Shown piece after piece: positions 1-7,498 of a stretch of DNA of 7,498 nucleotides (the first letter of the stretch is position 1; the number at the start of each line of letters is the position of its first letter). The DNA is from Candidatus Rifleibacteriota bacterium. GTDB lineage: Bacteria; UBP17; UBA6191; JACPRK01. The notes below the pieces were generated by a model. It made no database searches. It was not told the origin of the DNA and was given only the letters and a program-made list of their open reading frames with translations. Where the stretch lies: assembly GCA_016213865.1 (NCBI GenBank), contig JACQZL010000056.1, forward strand, positions 1 through 7,498, written 5' to 3'. A program made the position numbers and the translations under genes.

Positions 1-2385
1 GAGCAGCTTCTTGATGGCCGCCGCTTCCTCGTCGATCTGCCTCTGGACCTCGGCGAGCTTGGTGCCGTACTTGGCCCGGGAGGCCGCCCGACACTGCGCC
101 GCGATGGTGAGGCTCGGCTTCACGCAGTGCATCTCGGTCCACAGACTCAACACGCGCGGCCGCCCGTCGTCCTCCAGGACCCGGGCATACGCCTGGTAGT
201 TGGGCAGGTTCACCAGGTCCGCCGGGTCGACGTCATTGCCGAACTGCCGGGCCACCGTGACGGCGTCCTCGTTTCCCACCCTGAACGCGAGGATCGTCCC
301 CACGTTCCCGAAAATACCGTCCACCAGCCGGTTCCCCATCCTGCCCGTGTCCCGCAACTGGCTCAGGTACTGGTTGGCCAGCACCAGGGACACGCCGAAC
401 TTGCGCCCCTCGGCCAGCAGAATTGGAAACGAGTCCGTCAGGAAGTTCTGGAACTCGTCGGCATAGACGACGAACAGCTTGCGGTCAGCCTGCGCCAGCC
501 TCGCCCGTCCCAGGATGGAATCCTGGATCTTCGTCATCAGCAGGAACCCGAGGAATCGGACGGTCATCTCCCCCAGGAGCCCTGACGGCAGCCGGATCAG
601 GAGGATCTTCCCTTGCTCGATCACCTGGCCCAGGTCGAGCTTGCAGGTGCGCTGCCCGAACAGCCCGCGAGCGGCCATGCGATTGAGGCAGACGTCGAAC
701 TTCGACAGGAAGTACGTCATCGAACCATCCGACCGCGAGGACTTCACGTCCTTGAGCCACTCGTCGATGAACTCCGCCAGGGTCGGATCCGTGATCACGT
801 CCCGCGTCCGCTCGAGCAGTCGCTGATTGCGCAGGAAGGTCGGAAAGGCCAGGAGTGTCACGGGACGCGGAATCAGCCCCTGGTTGGCCAGTCTCATCAT
901 GATGAGCAGGAGGCTCCTGACCGTGTACTGGAAGACGGGGCCGACGAAGTCGGCCGGCCACATCCGCCAGAACAGCGTCAGGATCTCCTCGCAGACACGG
1001 TCCTGCTCCTCCCGGTCCTTGCAGTCCAGCGGATTGACTCCGACGGGGCAGGCTCCGTCCGTTGGGTCGATCAGCACCACGTCGTCCAGCCGGCTCCGCG
1101 GCATCGTCGCCATCACCCGCTCGGCCAGGTCGCCATGCGGATCGATGACGGCCACCCCGAGCCCGGCTTCGAGGTCCTGCATGATGCAGGAGTGCAGGAA
1201 CATCGACTTGCCGGCGCCCGTCTGCCCGAGGACGTAGAGATGGCGGCAACGGGCCTGGTCGGCAACCGCAACTCGCCGCGCTTCGTCCCGGCGCCCGTTC
1301 CTGCCGAGCTTCAACCCCACGGCCGGTACGAGCGGAGAAGCCATCAAGAACCGGCTCGTCCGACAAGGCAGCCCGTGCAGCGGTCCGGCGAGGATCGGCA
1401 AGCGAAAGGCCTTCGCTGCTTGCCGGACCGTGAACAGTCGCCGGAGTCGCGAGGGTTCCTCCGCGGCCCCGGGCGACGGCTCCGTGGGCTCCCCGGACAG
1501 CAGTGGCCGCAGACTCCCGGCCTCGGGCAATCGCACCAGCTCGTAAGCACCGTCGAGCGTCGGGCCCGGACGTCCACCGCCTCCCCCCGCGTCTGCGACC
1601 TCCCGGACCAGGGCGGCCACGACCCCAGCCGGCAGGGGCCCCTCCGAGTCGATGCAGAGCCGCATCGACACGAGTTGATCTCGGGAGCGGAGCAGGGACG
1701 CCGCCAGCTCGACCGCGCCGCTGAGAGGCATCACCCAGGCGGGCGGGACCGTTCCCCCGCCGGCCTGAGCAAGCCCCAGCAGCGGCAGCAGCTCGGATTC
1801 CTCCCACGGGAAGAGCCTGGCCGGTCTGACAGCGAGTCTCACCCGCGCCCGGGACTCGGCACTCATCAGCGAGCGAGGCAGGGCGGCGAATTCGGTCGTC
1901 CCTCCTCTGAAGGGCAGCACCCAGTCCTGGCCGCAAGCACCGTCGGGAACGGTGCGGCGCAGCATCTCCAGCCGGCAGCCGATGGTGAAAGGTGCCCACA
2001 GAGCCTCCAGCTCCTTTGCGTCCACGATGCCGTCCGACTCCTGAAGCCTGGACGTGCCTCGGAGCCCGCAGCAGACAGCCTCGTGCAACTTCACCGCGCG
2101 AGCCCTGGCCTCCAGGGCCGTCTCGGCGCGGACCCCGGCGAAGAGGGCGAGCCGAACGCGCGAGCGCCAAGGCTCGTCGCGATCCGGCAGCCCGACATAG
2201 TGCAGCTCCAACCACCGATCGTCCAGAGGCAGCGCAAGCTGGGCGAGCAGTTCTTCCTGCAGGACGTTCAACCGCTCCGCATCCTCCCCGGACGCGAACC
2301 CCAGCCCCCGGACCTCGAAACCCGTGAGGGCGTCGAACCCGCCGTTCGACTGCGGGACAACCAGGACCGCCGCCCTCGTTCTCAT
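1..2385 (-). CDS. HerA/TraD-type DNA-translocating ATPase, C-terminus beyond the window
   Basis: The ATG at 2385 opens a frame of 795 codons that is still open at base 1, so the C-terminus is missing. Seen: Walker A GQTGAGKS at residues 387-394, the strand motif VIDPHGDL around D415, Walker B as YADEFQNF with D643 and E644, a sensor-like LANQYLSQL just after it, and FRVGNEDA with R702 as a likely arginine finger. This order is typical of HerA, VirB4 and TraD/TraG-type hexameric ATPases, which pump DNA using ATP. The first 370 or so residues are a separate domain with no nucleotide-binding motif, recalling the N-terminal regions of VirB4-like proteins. No membrane segment is evident, so a soluble cytoplasmic motor is more likely than a membrane-bound coupling protein. 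The visible end (AEVQRQIDEEAAAIKKLL) looks like a coiled coil. The start overlaps the preceding stop as ATGA, with GGGAGG 8 bases upstream, so the two genes are probably translationally coupled. Confidence 0.9.
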   Translation of the reverse strand, partial: MRTRAAVLVVPQSNGGFDALTGFEVRGLGFASGEDAERLNVLQEELLAQLALPLDDRWLELHYVGLPDRDEPWRSRVRLALFAGVRAETALEARARAVKLHEAVCCGLRGTSRLQESDGIVDAKELEALWAPFTIGCRLEMLRRTVPDGACGQDWVLPFRGGTTEFAALPRSLMSAESRARVRLAVRPARLFPWEESELLPLLGLAQAGGGTVPPAWVMPLSGAVELAASLLRSRDQLVSMRLCIDSEGPLPAGVVAALVREVADAGGGGGRPGPTLDGAYELVRLPEAGSLRPLLSGEPTEPSPGAAEEPSRLRRLFTVRQAAKAFRLPILAGPLHGLPCRTSRFLMASPLVPAVGLKLGRNGRRDEARRVAVADQARCRHLYVLGQTGAGKSMFLHSCIMQDLEAGLGVAVIDPHGDLAERVMATMPRSRLDDVVLIDPTDGACPVGVNPLDCKDREEQDRVCEEILTLFWRMWPADFVGPVFQYTVRSLLLIMMRLANQGLIPRPVTLLAFPTFLRNQRLLERTRDVITDPTLAEFIDEWLKDVKSSRSDGSMTYFLSKFDVCLNRMAARGLFGQRTCKLDLGQVIEQGKILLIRLPSGLLGEMTVRFLGFLLMTKIQDSILGRARLAQADRKLFVVYADEFQNFLTDSFPILLAEGRKFGVSLVLANQYLSQLRDTGRMGNRLVDGIFGNVGTILAFRVGNEDAVTVARQFGNDVDPADLVNLPNYQAYARVLEDDGRPRVLSLWTEMHCVKPSLTIAAQCRAASRAKYGTKLAEVQRQIDEEAAAIKKLL

Positions 2386-4403
2386 GCGTCCGGCCTCCCG
2401 TCGGGTCTCCGCGGGGCCTCGCACGTCCGGCCCCCGGCGCCGGCGGCTCGTGCCCCCGCCTGTCCCGGGACATCGCCGGGCTCCGACACTGCACCGCCGG
2501 TGCTCGTGGGAGCCGCCGACCCGCTCCGGTCGGGCCCGCGGAAGGGCACGACGTGGAGCTTCCTGGCCAGGCGAGGGTTCTCCGGGAAGAGCCGTCTGGC
2601 GGTCTGGTCCGTCCCCGGCGCGGAACGGCACTCCTTCAGAAAGCCCACCGTCGTAGACCCAATCGGGGCATTGACTCCCAGGATGAGGATGGCCCGTCTC
2701 GCATCCGGTCCGGCGTCCTCTCCGTCGAGCCGGCCACGTTCCAGCAACTGGTCCAGGCGGGCCAGCAGCGCCGGCTGGGCGCGGTCCGCGTTCTCGAGGC
2801 AGACCACCGAGAAGGGCTGTCTGGCGAGGTGCTTCGTCAACAGTCCACCTCTCTTGGCGGCACCCAGCAAGGACTCCGCGTCGACCAGGCCCGGGCCCAG
2901 ATCCGCCGAGAAGAAGTGCCCCTCGCCGTACCTCGCATCCGCAAGCGCCCGGGCCATCGCGGACTTCGAGCTATTCTCGGCGCCCACGAAGAGGAGGGCC
3001 GCTGCCGTCGTCCCGGGCTCCCCAGGCCTGTCCTCCAGAGCGTGTTCGGCAACTGCGGCCGCGACTGCGCGACAAGCCTCCTCCTGACCGGGAACCCGCG
3101 CGACCAACAGGGTCGTCAGGCTCCCGGAGTCGCTTCCGGTCACGGCCAGCTTCTCCACGGGCAACCGCGCCCAGTCGGCGCCGGCAAGGCGAAGGCTCTC
3201 CACCTCCAGTCTCACGCGTTTGCCGGCGCGGGGCGTGCGGCGTCTCGCGCGCTCCATCAAGTCCAACGCCGACTCCGGCAGTGCTCGCCCGACGGCACAC
3301 CGGGCCGCGAGCCGAACCGTTTCGTCCAGGGCCTCTTCGTCCAGTTCAGCGCCGAGCCAGGTCTCGAGCCGGCCGCGGTCCTGGCGCAGGGCCTCGCGGG
3401 CTTCCTCCGGGGTTCTCCCGCCGACCGAAACCTCGGCGAGACAGTCCGCCAGCGCCGGGGCCGAGGAGAGCAGACGCTCGTACTCGTCCCGGCGGGCCAG
3501 GGCAACAATCCTGCCCGAGGCCAGCCAGTTTCTTGCCGGGTCCACCCGGGCGCCCTCTAACGACTCCACCAGGTCCCGCACGAACAGGACATGACCCGAA
3601 GCGCAGGACCCCCGAAACCGGATGGCCGCCTCGCGTCCCCCGCCGTTCATCCGCTCTCCGAGAGTCCCCCGCGATTCCCAGGCGGTGCAGCCGGGATGGA
3701 CGCCATCCCAAGCCCGGACCAGTACGGGCACGGCGCCTTCCCAGACCGCCGCCGGGTCGACGCCGGATTCCGCCACCATCACGCTCACCTGGCCCCCGCG
3801 GCCTTCCATCGACCTGACGACGGCCGCAAGCTCCTCGTCGCGACCCACACACGGCCGCCGAGGCTCCCCCCGCACCTCCTCGAGCCGCAACCGTGCCGAC
3901 AAGTTGCTTGCTCCGAGCTGCCGAAAGAAGCTGGAGTCATTGCCACGGCGCTCCAGGGCAGGCACTTTCGTCGCGCGGATGGCGATCGCCTCCACCCGAG
4001 CAGCAGTCTCCTGCCCCAGCAAGTCGCCCACCTCCGGCCACCAGCTTGCATCCAACCCGCCGCTGGCCGCGGACACCCCGTGCGTCACGAAGTCCGAAAG
4101 AACGCTGCCCAAATTGGCCAACCGGTGGCCGGGATCGAGCCGCAGAGCGTCGAGGAAATGGCGCCGGGCCTCCTGCACGCTGCCGTGACCCATGAGCAGC
4201 CGAAACCCCAGCAGCGCGACCGGCTCCGGATCTTCCGGGCGTCTCCGCGCAGCCTCACGGTACGTCCTCTCGAGGTCCCGAGCGTTCGGCGCAACCGGGT
4301 CTGCGGATTCGCGCGCGACCCGCCCGGCAGAGCTGGGCCTGCTCTCTCCCAACTCGAAGTCGGGCGGCTCTGCGTTCCCCCAATCGGACCGGCAAGTAGT
4401 CAT
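2382..4403 (-). CDS. Degenerate ClpA/ClpC-like tandem AAA+ protein with TPR-like N-terminus (probable pseudo-ATPase)
   Basis: A 673-residue protein. Residues 44-105 look like TPR helices (LERTYREAARRRPEDPEPVA, then HFLDALRLDPGHRLANLG). D1 begins at VGRDEEL (186-192). Its Walker A position reads AESGVDPAAVWEG (211-223), with DPA in place of GKT. Its Walker B reads LFVRD (273-277) instead of FIDE, and the usual RRF arginine-finger site is DCL (320-322). DEYERLL and LPESALDLMERA match conserved Clp segments. D2 begins near LPVEKL (414-419). Its Walker A is GAENSSKS (474-481), which keeps K480 but has S479 for glycine. Walker B is LEN (536-538) instead of LDE; N578 keeps the sensor-1 Asn. The C-terminal sensor-2 domain is replaced by about 50 Ala/Gly/Pro/Arg-rich residues, and there is no ClpB-type M domain. 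The fold is therefore Clp-like, but hydrolysis is doubtful. I chose the ATG at 4403 because it has GGAGAG 8 bases upstream; the in-frame TTG at 4508 adds 35 Pro-rich residues and lacks a good site. Confidence 0.85.
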   Translation of the reverse strand: MTTCRSDWGNAEPPDFELGESRPSSAGRVARESADPVAPNARDLERTYREAARRRPEDPEPVALLGFRLLMGHGSVQEARRHFLDALRLDPGHRLANLGSVLSDFVTHGVSAASGGLDASWWPEVGDLLGQETAARVEAIAIRATKVPALERRGNDSSFFRQLGASNLSARLRLEEVRGEPRRPCVGRDEELAAVVRSMEGRGGQVSVMVAESGVDPAAVWEGAVPVLVRAWDGVHPGCTAWESRGTLGERMNGGGREAAIRFRGSCASGHVLFVRDLVESLEGARVDPARNWLASGRIVALARRDEYERLLSSAPALADCLAEVSVGGRTPEEAREALRQDRGRLETWLGAELDEEALDETVRLAARCAVGRALPESALDLMERARRRTPRAGKRVRLEVESLRLAGADWARLPVEKLAVTGSDSGSLTTLLVARVPGQEEACRAVAAAVAEHALEDRPGEPGTTAAALLFVGAENSSKSAMARALADARYGEGHFFSADLGPGLVDAESLLGAAKRGGLLTKHLARQPFSVVCLENADRAQPALLARLDQLLERGRLDGEDAGPDARRAILILGVNAPIGSTTVGFLKECRSAPGTDQTARRLFPENPRLARKLHVVPFRGPDRSGSAAPTSTGGAVSEPGDVPGQAGARAAGAGGRTCEAPRRPDGRPDA
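2394..2399 (-). promoter_or_regulatory. Ribosome binding site of the HerA-like gene
   Basis: GGGAGG lies 8 bases before the ATG at 2385 and inside the last codons of the Clp-like gene. Together with the ATGA stop/start overlap it supports coupled or re-initiated translation of the two genes. Confidence 0.75.
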
Positions 4404-4411
4404 GAATCGAG

Positions 4412-4417
4412 CTCTCC
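4412..4417 (-). promoter_or_regulatory. Ribosome binding site that sets the start of the Clp-like gene
   Basis: GGAGAG lies 8 bases before the ATG at 4403. This favours that start over the longer in-frame TTG at 4508. I found no convincing -35/-10 pair for the operon within the 200 bases upstream. Confidence 0.65.
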
Positions 4418-4654
4418 AGGGCGCCGCGCCACCGCAGGCCGACGGCCAGGTCAGGGGTGCGGGAAGCGGCCGACCGAAGAGAGGCGCGGGAGGCTCGCCA
4501 GGTTTCAACCGCTGCGGACGGTGAGGGAGGCAGCGCCGGGGAGCAAACGCGCAGGAACCTCGCGGCTCGGGCCTCGCCCAATTGCATTAGATCGTGGTGG
4601 TTCCCATCCCCTGCCATGGGTTTGCCGGCGAGGCCGCAACGATGGCCACGCCGC

Positions 4655-4750
4655 AAGGTAGAAGCGGCTTCCAGCCGCTTTCTGGGCGCCCGGTCACGCG
4701 ACGGCGACTTGCCTGGACCTGTGGAAGCGGCAGGATGCCGCCTCTACCTT
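4655..4750. repeat. REP/BIME-like paired hairpin element
   Basis: The outer ends AAGGTAGAAGCGGC (4655-4668) and GCCGCCTCTACCTT (4737-4750) are inverted repeats with one mismatch in 14. Each end also forms its own hairpin. AAGCGGC-TTCCA-GCCGCTT at 4662-4680 is a perfect 7-bp stem. GCGGCA-GGA-TGCCGC at 4727-4741 is a perfect 6-bp stem. Two head-to-head hairpins of this kind are the hallmark of BIME elements mobilised by RAYT (TnpA-REP) transposases. No RAYT gene is in the window. Confidence 0.65.
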
Positions 4751-4759
4751 TCCGACGCC

Positions 4760-4778
4760 CGTCAGGCCTTTCCTGACG
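4760..4778. repeat. Perfect 7-bp hairpin, function unknown
   Basis: CGTCAGG-CCTTT-CCTGACG has a perfect 7-bp stem and a 5-base loop. It lies about 200 bases downstream of the mini-array in the minus direction, so it could help end an array transcript. No T-run follows on either strand, so it is not a canonical intrinsic terminator. It may belong to the surrounding inverted-repeat element. Confidence 0.35.
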
Positions 4779-4980
4779 CTGGATTTAATGCCATTGGGCC
4801 TCGCCCCTCGAGCGATAGCGCGCTGCCACCTCTCGGTCCCGCAGGCACCGGGGCACCGAGGGACACGAGTCGCCGCAAACAGGCCAGCACGCGACACCAG
4901 CATCTCCTGAACCTATACAAGGGGACCCGCGCCACGGCGCCTTGCTGGGCAACGCAACCAAGTGCCTTGCCATTTCCGTC

Positions 4981-5089
4981 CATCGCCCCCTCTGAAGCGA
5001 CGAAGAGGGGCGGAAGCTGCGATGAGCATGCCCCGCTCGCAGACCATCGTTGCGTTTCAATCCTCTGAAGCGAGGAAGAGGGGTGGAAC
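4981..5089 (-). CRISPR. Minimal CRISPR array: one repeat, one spacer, one degenerate terminal repeat
   Basis: Read on the minus strand, the first repeat is 5089-5054 (36 bp). It starts GTTCCACCCC and ends GAGGATTGAAAC. ATTGAAAC is the usual 8-base crRNA 5' handle of many type I and III systems. The second copy at 5016-4981 is also 36 bp. It keeps the core almost unchanged (plus-strand TCTGAAGCGA, one mismatch, then GAAGAGGGG) but has lost the ATTGAAAC end, as expected for the repeat furthest from the leader. The 37 bp between them (5053-5017) is a normal spacer length. An internal CCTCT/AGAGG pairing is conserved in both copies. The orientation puts the leader and cas1 upstream. With only two copies, exact repeat ends are uncertain by a base or two. 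An array worn down to one spacer, or a newly founded one, would both look like this. Confidence 0.65.
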
Positions 5090-5330
5090 AACACCCCCGG
5101 CGTTTGGCTCTGGGAGCGGGCTGTACGAGCGGAATGTGCGAACCTCCCGCGACCTCCGGAAAAACGACCCTGATACAACGACATTGCCGAAGCCGAGAGC
5201 CCGCCCGTGATGCCCTGTTTCGCGATCACCCCCCTCCGTCGAGCTAGTCGTGATGCGGGTTCTGGATCCGCCGACCCCCGAAAATCCTCGATCTTCCCTG
5301 TCTGGGAGCGAATGTGCGAGATCGAACGAA
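5090..5330 (-). promoter_or_regulatory. Putative CRISPR leader with duplicated 10-base motifs
   Basis: This lies directly upstream of the first repeat on the minus strand. TCGCACATTC occurs exactly twice (5319-5310 and 5141-5132), as does CGCTCCCAGA (5310-5301 and 5118-5109). In the far copy the two words overlap by one base; in the near copy they are 13 bases apart. A looser shared segment is TTTTTCCGGAGGTCG near 5170-5153, compared with ATTTTCGGGGGTCGG near 5284-5269. Leaders hold array promoters and adaptation-protein binding sites, so the repeated words could be such sites or traces of a duplicated leader. I see no convincing promoter immediately before the repeat and no protein-coding signal here. 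Confidence 0.45.
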
Positions 5331-5388
5331 GTCAAGCCATTCTCGAGGGGTACCTGGAGGTCCGCGCGAGGGGTTTTCAGAGCCTCCT

Positions 5389-5538
5389 TTAGCATGAAAC
5401 TGGGTTTTCCTGGCTTCCGATCGACGCGCAGTAGCATCCATGCCGACAAACCACTTTGCCGTTCTCGAAAGGCCGCACCAGTACGGCATGGTCGGAGAGC
5501 AGCGGAGGCTGAAGCCCGATCCAGGGCGACAAGTGCAC
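5389..5538 (-). CDS. Doubtful 49-residue cysteine-containing ORF between cas1 and the array
   Basis: A GTG at 5538 opens 49 codons ending in TAA. The product includes LSDHAVLVRPFENGKVVCRHG followed by CYCAS, so four cysteines in all with the last residue. Residue composition is protein-like and roughly two thirds of codons end in G or C. Against it, GGAAGG abuts the GTG with no spacing, no other start is available before an upstream stop, and I do not recognise the sequence. It occupies the place where cas2 often sits but has none of the Cas2 features. It lies about 70 bases downstream of a promoter-like sequence. It could be a small accessory protein, a remnant of a lost gene, or chance. Confidence 0.2.
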   Translation of the reverse strand: MHLSPWIGLQPPLLSDHAVLVRPFENGKVVCRHGCYCASIGSQENPVSC

Positions 5539-5616
5539 CCTTCCCGTCGCGCCGGGGGGTCTGGACTCTCTTGCTCGACCGCTCCATCATCTGCGCCTCG
5601 CCTTGCCGTCTTCTGG

Positions 5617-5644
5617 AGTGTAGCACGATTGCCGCGGTCGTCAA
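5617..5644 (-). promoter_or_regulatory. Sigma70-like promoter just after cas1
   Basis: TTGACG (5644-5639), a 16-base spacer, then TACACT (5622-5617), read on the minus strand and starting five bases after the cas1 stop. The -35 matches 5 of 6 consensus bases and the -10 matches 4 of 6. It points towards the leader and array. A transcript starting near 5610 would run about 520 bases before reaching the first repeat, so it may serve the small ORF or a long leader RNA instead. Confidence 0.35.
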
Positions 5645-5648
5645 GGTC

Positions 5649-6650
5649 TCACCTCCACTCCATCGGAACATACTCCCCCTCCCCGCGGACCCAGCTCCGG
5701 TAGCTCAACGCTTGCAGCCGGGCGAACTCCCGATAGTCCACCGTTCGGCCGCTCGGACCGTGAAAGGAGGTCTCCGCCATCCGCTCGTGGTACAGCTTCA
5801 CGTACCTGGCCAACCCCACCTCCGTCATCCGGGTCCCGGCCTCGCCCCCGTCGACGAAGTCCCTGGCCGTCAGCTCGAAGCGGTTGATGACCGCAAGGAC
5901 CAGGCTGTCGACCACGCAGCGCATCTCTTCCATCAGGTCCAGCGCCAGCGAGGGACGCCCGTTCTTGAGCTCGTGCAGGTTGCTCAGGTACGGGTCCAGT
6001 GCCGCCACCTGGATGGCCGACAGCACTTGCCCGAAGAGCAGCGTGTAGCCAAAGGAGAGCAGCGCGTTCACCGGGTCCTTGGGCGGTCGCCGGTTCCTTC
6101 CCTCGAAGCCCAGCTCCTGCTTCAGGTTCCTTCGCAGCCCCGCGAAGTACTCCCGGGCGGCCGTCCCCTCGAGGCCCATCAGGCTTTCGACACTCGAGGC
6201 AGTCAGCGCCTCGTCCGCCAGCAGCTTGAGCCGCGCGCGCGTCTTCGCGTCCTGCTCTCCGGTTCCATCGCTCCGGCGTCGCAGCACGACTCTCGAGTTG
6301 CCGATCTTCGCCGCCACCAGCTTGCGGGCCAGTTCCAGCTTGCGCTTCTCGTCCAGGGCCAGTTTGTACTGGGCAAAGCGCGTCTCGGTCGCCAGCACGC
6401 CCAGGGGACAGCCGCGGGCCAGGAACCGGCCCTGCTTGGTCAGGTAGACCAGGTCGATCCCCTCGCGCGCCAGGTGTACGAAGGCCGAGCTGGTCACCTC
6501 CACGCTGCCGAAGAGCAGCACCCGCTCCAGCCGGAAGAGCGGCACGTCCTGCAGGACGGCGCCCCGCGAATCCCGCACCAGCAGACGGCCCGCCACCCGG
6601 TGGACGTGGGCCCCCTGCTCCACCACGTAGAGTGACGTCGGGCTGTCCAC
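5649..6650 (-). CDS. cas1: CRISPR-associated endonuclease/integrase Cas1
   Basis: A full-length Cas1 of 333 residues. Cas1 is the metal-dependent integrase that inserts new spacers into the leader-proximal end of an array, normally as a Cas1-Cas2 complex. The N-terminal beta domain is recognisable (SLYVVEQGAHVHR, then LLFGSVEVTSSAFVHLAREG). The catalytic alpha domain has LMGLEGTAAREYF with E161, DPVNALLSFGYTLLFGQV (192-209), LHELKNGRPSLALDLMEEMR with H226, and the acidic cluster D238/E241/E242. All expected metal ligands are therefore present and it should be active. The start is GTG at 6650, supported by AGGAGGTGA ending 7 bases upstream. The style resembles Cas1 proteins of type III and related type I loci, but I cannot assign the subtype. 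No cas2 follows; the nearest upstream gene ends 21 bases away, suggesting one operon. Confidence 0.95.
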   Translation of the reverse strand: MDSPTSLYVVEQGAHVHRVAGRLLVRDSRGAVLQDVPLFRLERVLLFGSVEVTSSAFVHLAREGIDLVYLTKQGRFLARGCPLGVLATETRFAQYKLALDEKRKLELARKLVAAKIGNSRVVLRRRSDGTGEQDAKTRARLKLLADEALTASSVESLMGLEGTAAREYFAGLRRNLKQELGFEGRNRRPPKDPVNALLSFGYTLLFGQVLSAIQVAALDPYLSNLHELKNGRPSLALDLMEEMRCVVDSLVLAVINRFELTARDFVDGGEAGTRMTEVGLARYVKLYHERMAETSFHGPSGRTVDYREFARLQALSYRSWVRGEGEYVPMEWR

Positions 6651-6657
6651 GGGCCGC

Positions 6658-6666
6658 TCACCTCCT
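6658..6666 (-). promoter_or_regulatory. Ribosome binding site of cas1
   Basis: AGGAGGTGA matches the anti-Shine-Dalgarno over nine bases and ends 7 bases before the GTG at 6650, which fixes that non-ATG start. The TGA inside it would also be the stop of the upstream gene if that gene's alternative reading frame were used. Confidence 0.7.
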
Positions 6667-6671
6667 GCCCG

Positions 6672-7262
6672 CTACCGCGGGTCTGGCCGCCTCCGGCTGC
6701 TCCGGCTCCTCGCCGAGCCCCTCGAGCTGCACGGTGACTTCGCCTGACGGCTCAGATAGCCGTACTCGCGCCCATCTCCGTCCAGATCCGGCGGCGGATT
6801 CCTCGGCTCGCAGAGCTTGCCGCCGGCCTTGGGAAAGAGGTCCAGGTGGACCAGCGGGGCGGGGTACGTGCCGGCCGGCAAGCGAAAGACACAGCGGCAC
6901 AGGTCCGTCACCCCGTCTTCGAGCAGCATCCGCCGCACCTTGCGGCAGCCGATGGGGGTCGGCGGCACCGCGCGGAGGGCGCGGTTGACCTCGTCGGGAT
7001 CGTAGCCAGGCTGGGCAGCCAGGGCCTGGTGGACGAAGCGGCGGCCGTCCTCTCCCAGGTGCGTGAAGATCTGGATCAGGGCGTGGGTCTCGCCGGGGCC
7101 GAGGGGCTCTCGAAGACGGGCGCGCGCCAGGAGGTGGCCCGCGGCGGGGCAGCGGGCCGACAGCAGCTCGATCTGTTCGGGCAACCTCTCCGGAAGCAAC
7201 GGACGGGCAGTCTCGCCCGCGTTCGCCCGGGGGCATGGCTCCTGCTGACTGCGAGAGAACAT
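6672..7262 (-). CDS. Small protein resembling the Fe-S C-terminal domain of primase large subunit, upstream of cas1
   Basis: 196 residues. The core runs LSARCPAAGHLL (C38), FTHLGEDGRRFVHQAL (66-81), PTPIGCRKVR (C106), LCRCVF (C122, C124), YPAPLVH (133-139) and GGKLCEP (C151). In PriL proteins four cysteines bind a [4Fe-4S] cluster: one before helices, one in an FSCLKI-like segment, one in a GCPF-like segment about 17 residues later, and one further on. C38, C106, C122 or C124, and C151 follow that order with similar early spacing. A similar domain, as I recall, ends some CRISPR-associated primase-polymerases. Here no catalytic primase domain is attached. The ATG at 7262 has GGAGG 6 bases upstream, better than the in-frame ATG at 7286. 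The last 26 residues are Ser/Arg-rich and unlike the rest; another frame gives a smoother tail ending at 6658, so a frameshift is possible. It probably shares an operon with cas1. The assignment comes from motif memory, not a search. Confidence 0.6.
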   Translation of the reverse strand: MFSRSQQEPCPRANAGETARPLLPERLPEQIELLSARCPAAGHLLARARLREPLGPGETHALIQIFTHLGEDGRRFVHQALAAQPGYDPDEVNRALRAVPPTPIGCRKVRRMLLEDGVTDLCRCVFRLPAGTYPAPLVHLDLFPKAGGKLCEPRNPPPDLDGDGREYGYLSRQAKSPCSSRGSARSRSSRRRPDPR

Positions 7263-7445
7263 GGTCGGCCTCCGTGGGCTGGTCATCCGACGACCGGGTC
7301 GGGGTAGGTCATGAGCTGGGGACTTGCGTCAGGTTCTGGGTTGGTTTCACGGCCCGGGGACTGTCCGACGATCCGCCGACAGGGTTCGAAGTCTCGGCAC
7401 CGACCATTCTGGCCGCAATTCTCCGCACACTTGGCTCCAGGGGAT
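7263..7445. other. Intergenic stretch upstream of the primase-like gene
   Basis: No ORF with coding character and no convincing promoter was seen on either strand. It contains the primase-like gene's ribosome binding site (GGAGG, 7273-7269 on the minus strand). The transcription start of the adaptation operon is probably here or further right. Confidence 0.5.
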
Positions 7446-7498
7446 GTAGGGGCGGGGCTCGTCCCCGCCCGCTCTGGGCCAGGCTTTCGGGCGGGGAC
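7446..7498. repeat. GC-rich inverted-repeat unit cut by the window edge
   Basis: GGGCGGGG-CTCGT-CCCCGCCC at 7450-7470 is a perfect 8-bp stem with a 5-base loop, preceded by GTAG. At 7489-7498 GGGCGGGGAC repeats the right arm in inverted orientation, so a second, head-to-head hairpin probably continues past the window. This is the same paired-hairpin layout as 4655-4750 but with a different core. Confidence 0.6.

Follow-up and report, generated by a model that had tools for sequence, protein, structure and literature searches.

We analyzed a 7,498-nucleotide stretch of DNA from Candidatus Rifleibacteriota bacterium (contig JACQZL010000056.1, positions 1 to 7,498), referred to at its full length as the window, in which two overlapping genes encode P0001, a diverged Clp/Hsp100 protein, and P0002, a putative DNA-pumping ATPase. 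The contig has a listed length of 8,583 bases in the protein database. A preliminary description of this DNA had presented the two as a candidate new two-component system. All genes identified in the window lie on its minus strand, where they read in the order primase-polymerase piece, cas1, CRISPR remnant, P0001, and P0002 (Table 1). GC content was 0.63-0.72 across the window (1-kb windows). A total of 14 window frames were scanned with Pfam, short frames being only partly covered, and statements below on genes absent from the window refer to these 14 frames. Ten of the 14, distributed over both strands and distinct from the genes identified, gave no Pfam match.

Table 1. Features identified in the window, with positions counted from its first base
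Feature	Positions	Strand	Basis
P0001, 673-aa diverged Clp/Hsp100 protein	2382..4403	-	frame, Pfam, Clp alignment, structure model
P0002, VirD4/VirB4/HerA-type DNA-pumping ATPase, 795 aa visible, open at base 1	1..2385	-	frame, Pfam, alignment, fold
ATGA, overlap of P0001 stop and P0002 start	2382..2385	-	frame coordinates
GGAGAG, ribosome-site-like, ahead of P0001 start	4412..4417	-	25-base upstream sequence; hand-counted position
GGGAGG, ribosome-site-like, ahead of P0002 start	2394..2399	-	25-base upstream sequence; hand-counted position
Two-repeat CRISPR remnant, neighbor outside the pair	4981..5089	-	repeat search
cas1, 333 aa, GTG start, neighbor	5649..6650	-	PF01867, E 7.7e-85
CRISPR-associated primase-polymerase piece, neighbor	6672..7286	-	model positions 365-477 of 515; 64.4 bits

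Both frames of the pair are long and intact, as previously described: that of P0001 runs from 4403 to 2382, and that of P0002 runs from its ATG at 2385 to the open end at base 1. Given the base composition of the window, a stop-free run of 674 codons has a probability of 1.5e-6 and one of 795 codons a probability of 1.3e-7; because of these values, and because both proteins have homologues, the frames are unlikely to have arisen by chance. Third-position GC was 0.82 for P0001 and 0.87 for P0002. The extent originally given for the pair (1..4403) has the correct end at 4403, whereas its start is the edge of the window and not the end of a gene. P0002 is probably near-complete at 795 aa, since its nearest relative has 803 aa. 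The ATGA overlap was found at 2385-2382 as reported, and each start codon is preceded by the reported ribosome-site-like run. The overlap is expected to couple translation of P0001 and P0002.

Predicted properties of P0002 and P0001

The sequence of P0002 identifies it as a predicted DNA-translocating ATPase of the VirD4/VirB4/HerA superfamily with intact active-site motifs. Walker A (GQTGAGKS) and Walker B (ending in YADE) are both kept, and residues G392, K393, D643, and E644 were invariant across 51 aligned proteins, in agreement with the earlier view of a motor that is catalytically intact by motif. The protein comprises an N-terminal alpha/beta domain (residues ~1-310), which was modelled with good confidence, and the motor itself (~316-795). 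Pfam matches included TrwB_AAD_bind and TraG-D_C, and the HerA central domain DUF87 scored 26.4 bits against a cut-off of 23.2. P0002 has a TrwB-like motor fold, and TrwB, a conjugative coupling protein, was its best fold match.

P0002 was compared with the known branches of this superfamily. With the VirD4/TrwB coupling ATPases it shares the motor core, both Pfam domains, and the best structural match; unlike them, it has a large N-terminal alpha/beta domain and no membrane helix. Coupling proteins are usually membrane-anchored. The lack of an evident anchor had already been pointed out, and we likewise found no long hydrophobic stretch in P0002 (best 19-residue mean hydropathy, 1.28). No secretion or relaxase genes linked to P0002 were present among the scanned frames. 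It differs from VirB4/TrwK in giving no match to the CagE/TrbE/VirB4 Pfam domain, and the full-length structural overlay was not tight enough to establish that the N-terminal domain is shared. No HAS-barrel was matched by Pfam on P0002, and no NurA, SIR2, or nuclease partner was encoded by the scanned frames. In the SIR2-HerA and DUF4297-HerA defense complexes the partner is an NADase or a nuclease, unlike P0001, and P0002 is nearer to TrwB and VirB4 by Z. The Mad8 model of the MADS defense system matched only the motor (E 3.7e-14), and no other mad genes were among the matches listed for the four proteins scanned (best 25 of 32 for Cas1). Plasmid matches of P0002 reached a coverage of at most 61% (best 20 of 113 records).

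P0001 resembles the Clp/Hsp100 proteins (ClpA, ClpC, and ClpB) in having two AAA+ domains of identical order and fold. Its architecture consists of a weakly TPR-like N-terminus (~40-100), D1 (~181-390), D2 (~410-620), and a poorly predicted tail; sequence beyond ~620 did not align with Clp relatives. Pfam AAA_lid_9 scored above its cut-off (25 versus 22.8) and AAA_2 just below (26.5 versus 27). TPR-like helices had been noted previously, and a TPR match was indeed obtained (PF07719, E 0.0087), but it is weak and under the cut-off. P0001 departs from Clp/Hsp100 proteins in its TPR-like N-terminus, in the loss of most catalytic residues, and in giving no match to ClpN (PF02861) or the D2 small domain (PF10431) up to E 1.

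The Clp residues of known role include the arginine fingers and the pore loop. In comparison with 26 Clp relatives, the Walker A, Walker B, and arginine-finger positions of P0001 are mostly replaced, the residual Clp residues being D277, K480, S481, and N578. The D2 pore loop is present and has no aromatic residue (GLVD; the relatives compared have GYVG or a close variant of it). P0001 thus appears to be the degenerate Clp-like AAA+ relative that had been proposed; judged from these replacements, it has probably kept the AAA+ scaffold and lost ATP hydrolysis and protein threading.

Relatives of P0001 were sought in a database of 5.8 billion proteins, in which the candidates sharing most words were scored and a diverged partner could escape. 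The full-length search returned P0001 itself and 26 Clp-type proteins at E up to 0.001 (7,993 candidates scored), and residues 1-330 returned only the self-match up to E 1 (7,990 candidates scored). The annotated plasmid matches were all Clp proteins (best 20 of 33 records).

An unusual ClpA-like group, that of P0013 (1148 aa), was considered as a home for P0001 and rejected: a ClpC scores higher against P0001 (73 versus 61 bits), and P0013, unlike P0001, keeps Walker A. The D1 Walker B is off the Clp consensus in both proteins. Genes resembling P0013 did not adjoin a motor in the five genomes compared (G480, G514, G538, G578, and G594), as judged by eye among the matches listed. Non-standard ClpA-like proteins related to P0013 were also seen in L099-L106, seven of the eight having ~1,000 aa, in the phylum of L066 (titled Caldilineales).

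Distribution of the pair and its possible joint function

The overlap of the two genes, the intact motor motifs, and the loss of most Clp catalytic residues are all observed, and together they suggest a tentative reading, to which we give a probability of roughly 40%, in which P0001 acts as a non-catalytic adaptor or gate for a P0002 ring. P0002 would form a hexameric motor ring in contact with P0001, which would sit on it and might itself be ring-shaped. The helical N-terminus of P0001 could bring a partner, such as a DNA-bound protein, a nuclease, or a membrane component, to the pump, or could instead hold that partner off the pump until it is wanted. If P0001 and P0002 do cooperate, a protein-unfolding machine stripped of its catalysis would have been reused as the adaptor of a DNA motor, and two large ATPase superfamilies that usually form separate fields of study would be connected. 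The pair would then also offer a simple two-protein complex for studying the loading and regulation of soluble VirD4-like pumps.

In order to determine whether the pair occurs elsewhere, we gathered motor relatives from 71 loci of named genomes, from viral contigs (at least 14 loci, 12 distinct contigs), and from the best matches in three phylum samples. The share of genomes with a motor match in these samples was 8/194, 28/247, and 71/251, and 20 longer regions were taken from the last two. The resulting 140 loci (duplicates and Clp-only loci included) contained 130 motor genes scoring >150 bits, 111 of them distinct, although at least one (L046) occurs twice among these. Upstream of the motor, the sequence extended for 2 kb or more in 89 of the 111.

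Several results weigh against an adaptor role, among them those from this survey. The preliminary description would take a lack of co-occurrence in other genomes as a refutation, and this was the outcome in all loci examined: a Clp-like gene lay within 8 kb of only two of the 111 distinct motors, both times downstream: a 900-aa Clp 3.7 kb from the motor in L025, and a 251-aa Clp-like frame (16.5 bits) in L001, cut by the contig end and second gene after the motor. Immediately upstream, none of the 111 had a Clp-like gene. Among genes on the same strand and no more than 40 bp from these motors (37 ending upstream and 23 starting downstream), nothing resembled P0001, the best blastp match having an E of 0.45 and phmmer giving none up to E 10. 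In L113 (region 1648-5444), a 356-aa gene does precede a motor relative with a 4-base overlap, but it has no Pfam match and is unlike P0001. For some relatives, a gene for replication-relaxation, rather than for a Clp, adjoins or overlaps that of the motor. The P0001-P0002 pair was not found a second time among the loci examined, which leaves the new two-component system unsupported so far and offers no argument from conservation for contact or joint function. For P0001 itself, the structure model is of moderate quality (pLDDT 68.3), with the first 180 residues mostly unreliable, and D2 may still bind ATP, K480, S481, and N578 being kept. The pair is thus real and unusual in detail, with one example only. 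The motor relatives examined were mostly 25-37% identical to P0002 and so represent the family rather than its nearest kin; because none is as close as P0029, the closest relative of P0002 (46% identity; listed on a contig of 12,124 bases), the failure to co-occur is not a final refutation.

The leading alternative, which we consider unlikely although the best placed of those weighed here, is a pump for DNA transfer by a mobile element, in which P0002 would export or mobilize the DNA of the element, in the manner of other solitary VirD4-like proteins, and P0001 would be an element-specific accessory, for example one docking a DNA-bound initiator or relaxase. Apart from the fold match to the coupling protein TrwB, it is favored by the neighbors of the motor relatives: within 8 kb, a replication-relaxation cluster was found in 20 loci and a phage-integrase cluster in 41, many of the latter from Patescibacteria (loci counted with duplicates and one representative per cluster Pfam-scanned). 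Replic_Relax genes directly adjoin the 842-aa and 950-aa motors of L115 and L117, with a 4-base overlap in L115. XerC/D are cellular recombinases, and the integrase of the Patescibacteria loci may be one of these. By contrast, none of the scanned frames of the window itself encodes a relaxase, an integrase, a replication initiator, or any additional secretion component, and P0002 lacks the membrane helix usual in coupling proteins.

The wider distribution of the motor also speaks against this alternative. Of the 116 small-genome species sampled (G004 and G697-G811), 113 had a motor match, many of them two or more; these species are probably Patescibacteria, and smpB and other cellular genes were frequent neighbors in loci of this type. 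In those species, a solitary VirD4/HerA-like motor is close to a core gene and looks cellular rather than mobile. With P0002 as the query, no relatives were found in viral contigs; distant viral loci were retrieved with the motor alignment (at least nine) and with P0029 (five), together on the 12 contigs mentioned above. The motor family is neither shown to be defense-specific nor confined to conjugation clusters.

A further alternative, which we regard as improbable, places the pair among HerA/FtsK-capture-type anti-invader systems: the motor would reel in foreign DNA, the inactive ATPase would recognize or load it, and a nuclease encoded outside the window would cut. The capture systems are the nearest published counterpart: passages of PMC10853773 pair their motors, alongside nucleases, with inactive ATPase domains or with AAA+ proteins of the Orc/Cdc6 kind, and the idea is extended in passages of PMC12839542. 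The likeness lies in the combination of a DNA pump with an inactive ATPase, the inactivity of P0001 being read from its sequence; the difference is that the partner here is Clp-derived, whereas the published partners in those passages are of Orc/Cdc6 or D5 type (PMC10853773). Against such a role, the scanned frames encode no nuclease besides Cas1, P0001 had no PADLOC match up to E 0.1, and superfamily fold matches cannot tell defense from transfer. The neighboring CRISPR repeats (~0.6 kb from the gene pair) and cas1 (~1.2 kb) are also distant, and the module that they form is fragmentary.

The preliminary description had known of no named system with this pairing. In titles, abstracts, and passages of the literature, we found no Clp-like pseudo-ATPase paired with a HerA or VirD4 motor, and a Clp-derived partner is absent from the passages describing capture systems; a motor paired with an inactive ATPase is already a known kind of arrangement (PMC10853773). 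More doubtful again is a bolder form of the adaptor proposal, a new HerA/FtsK-type branch of systems for DNA handling or against invaders: a Clp unfoldase would have become a dead, TPR-tipped ring, docking on and controlling a soluble VirD4/VirB4-like pump beside a CRISPR adaptation module.

Least probable of all is an accidental neighborhood, in which P0001 would be a lone, fast-diverging clp copy ahead of the motor with no joint function: P0001 is a singleton with no relative found for its N-terminus, and the absence of directly upstream Clp-like genes from the surveyed motors fits this explanation, but the ATGA overlap, the ribosome-site-like run inside the upstream gene, and an intact P0001 frame of such length despite the loss of most catalytic residues argue against it.

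CRISPR neighborhood and other observations

The cas1 gene, the primase-polymerase piece, and the CRISPR repeat pair, none of which had been mentioned previously, lie upstream of P0001-P0002 on the same strand. CRISPR repeats often end in ATTGAAAC. The pair found here, downstream of cas1 and spaced 73 bases apart, consists of a 36-base repeat ending in ATTGAAAC (5089-5054), a 37-base spacer (5053-5017), and a degenerate end repeat (5016-4981). The 27-base repeat core had two matches in the window, allowing up to 3 mismatches, versus 0.00 expected.

The primase-polymerase match was far under the family cut-off (64.4 versus 200 bits) and spans a short, C-terminal part of the model, so that the 6672-7286 frame lacks the catalytic primase portion. 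Matches to Cas1 were obtained in 66 of 199 genomes from one phylum, that of L059 (titled Acidobacterium); the best were 35-41% identical, with a single partial match at 45% and weaker matches going down to 26%. No Cas2 was found among the scanned frames, in which short frames were only partly covered. The neighboring module is a CRISPR adaptation module or its remains, and it is fragmentary. According to passages of PMC8211822, CRISPR-associated primase-polymerases occur in operons with Cas1 and Cas2 and bind both, and a role in spacer acquisition has been proposed. By eye, an overlapping frame (7236-6658, no Pfam match) extends past the end of the primase-polymerase piece, and that end may be frame-shifted.

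Short palindromic or repeat-like intergenic stretches were also noticed by eye at ~4660-4690 and 7445-7498; they are of a type scattered in some GC-rich genomes. Among the motor relatives, a TPR fused to P0030, whose C-terminus looked helical by eye, was considered and rejected, as no TPR Pfam match was obtained up to E 1. A recurrent two-motor arrangement was seen in the alphaproteobacterial loci L034, L035, L041, L043, L044, L045, L049, and L055: downstream of a short motor (~380-475 aa), and in the same orientation, comes another HerA-like protein with a weaker match (~690-900 aa), the L035 protein alone having been Pfam-scanned.
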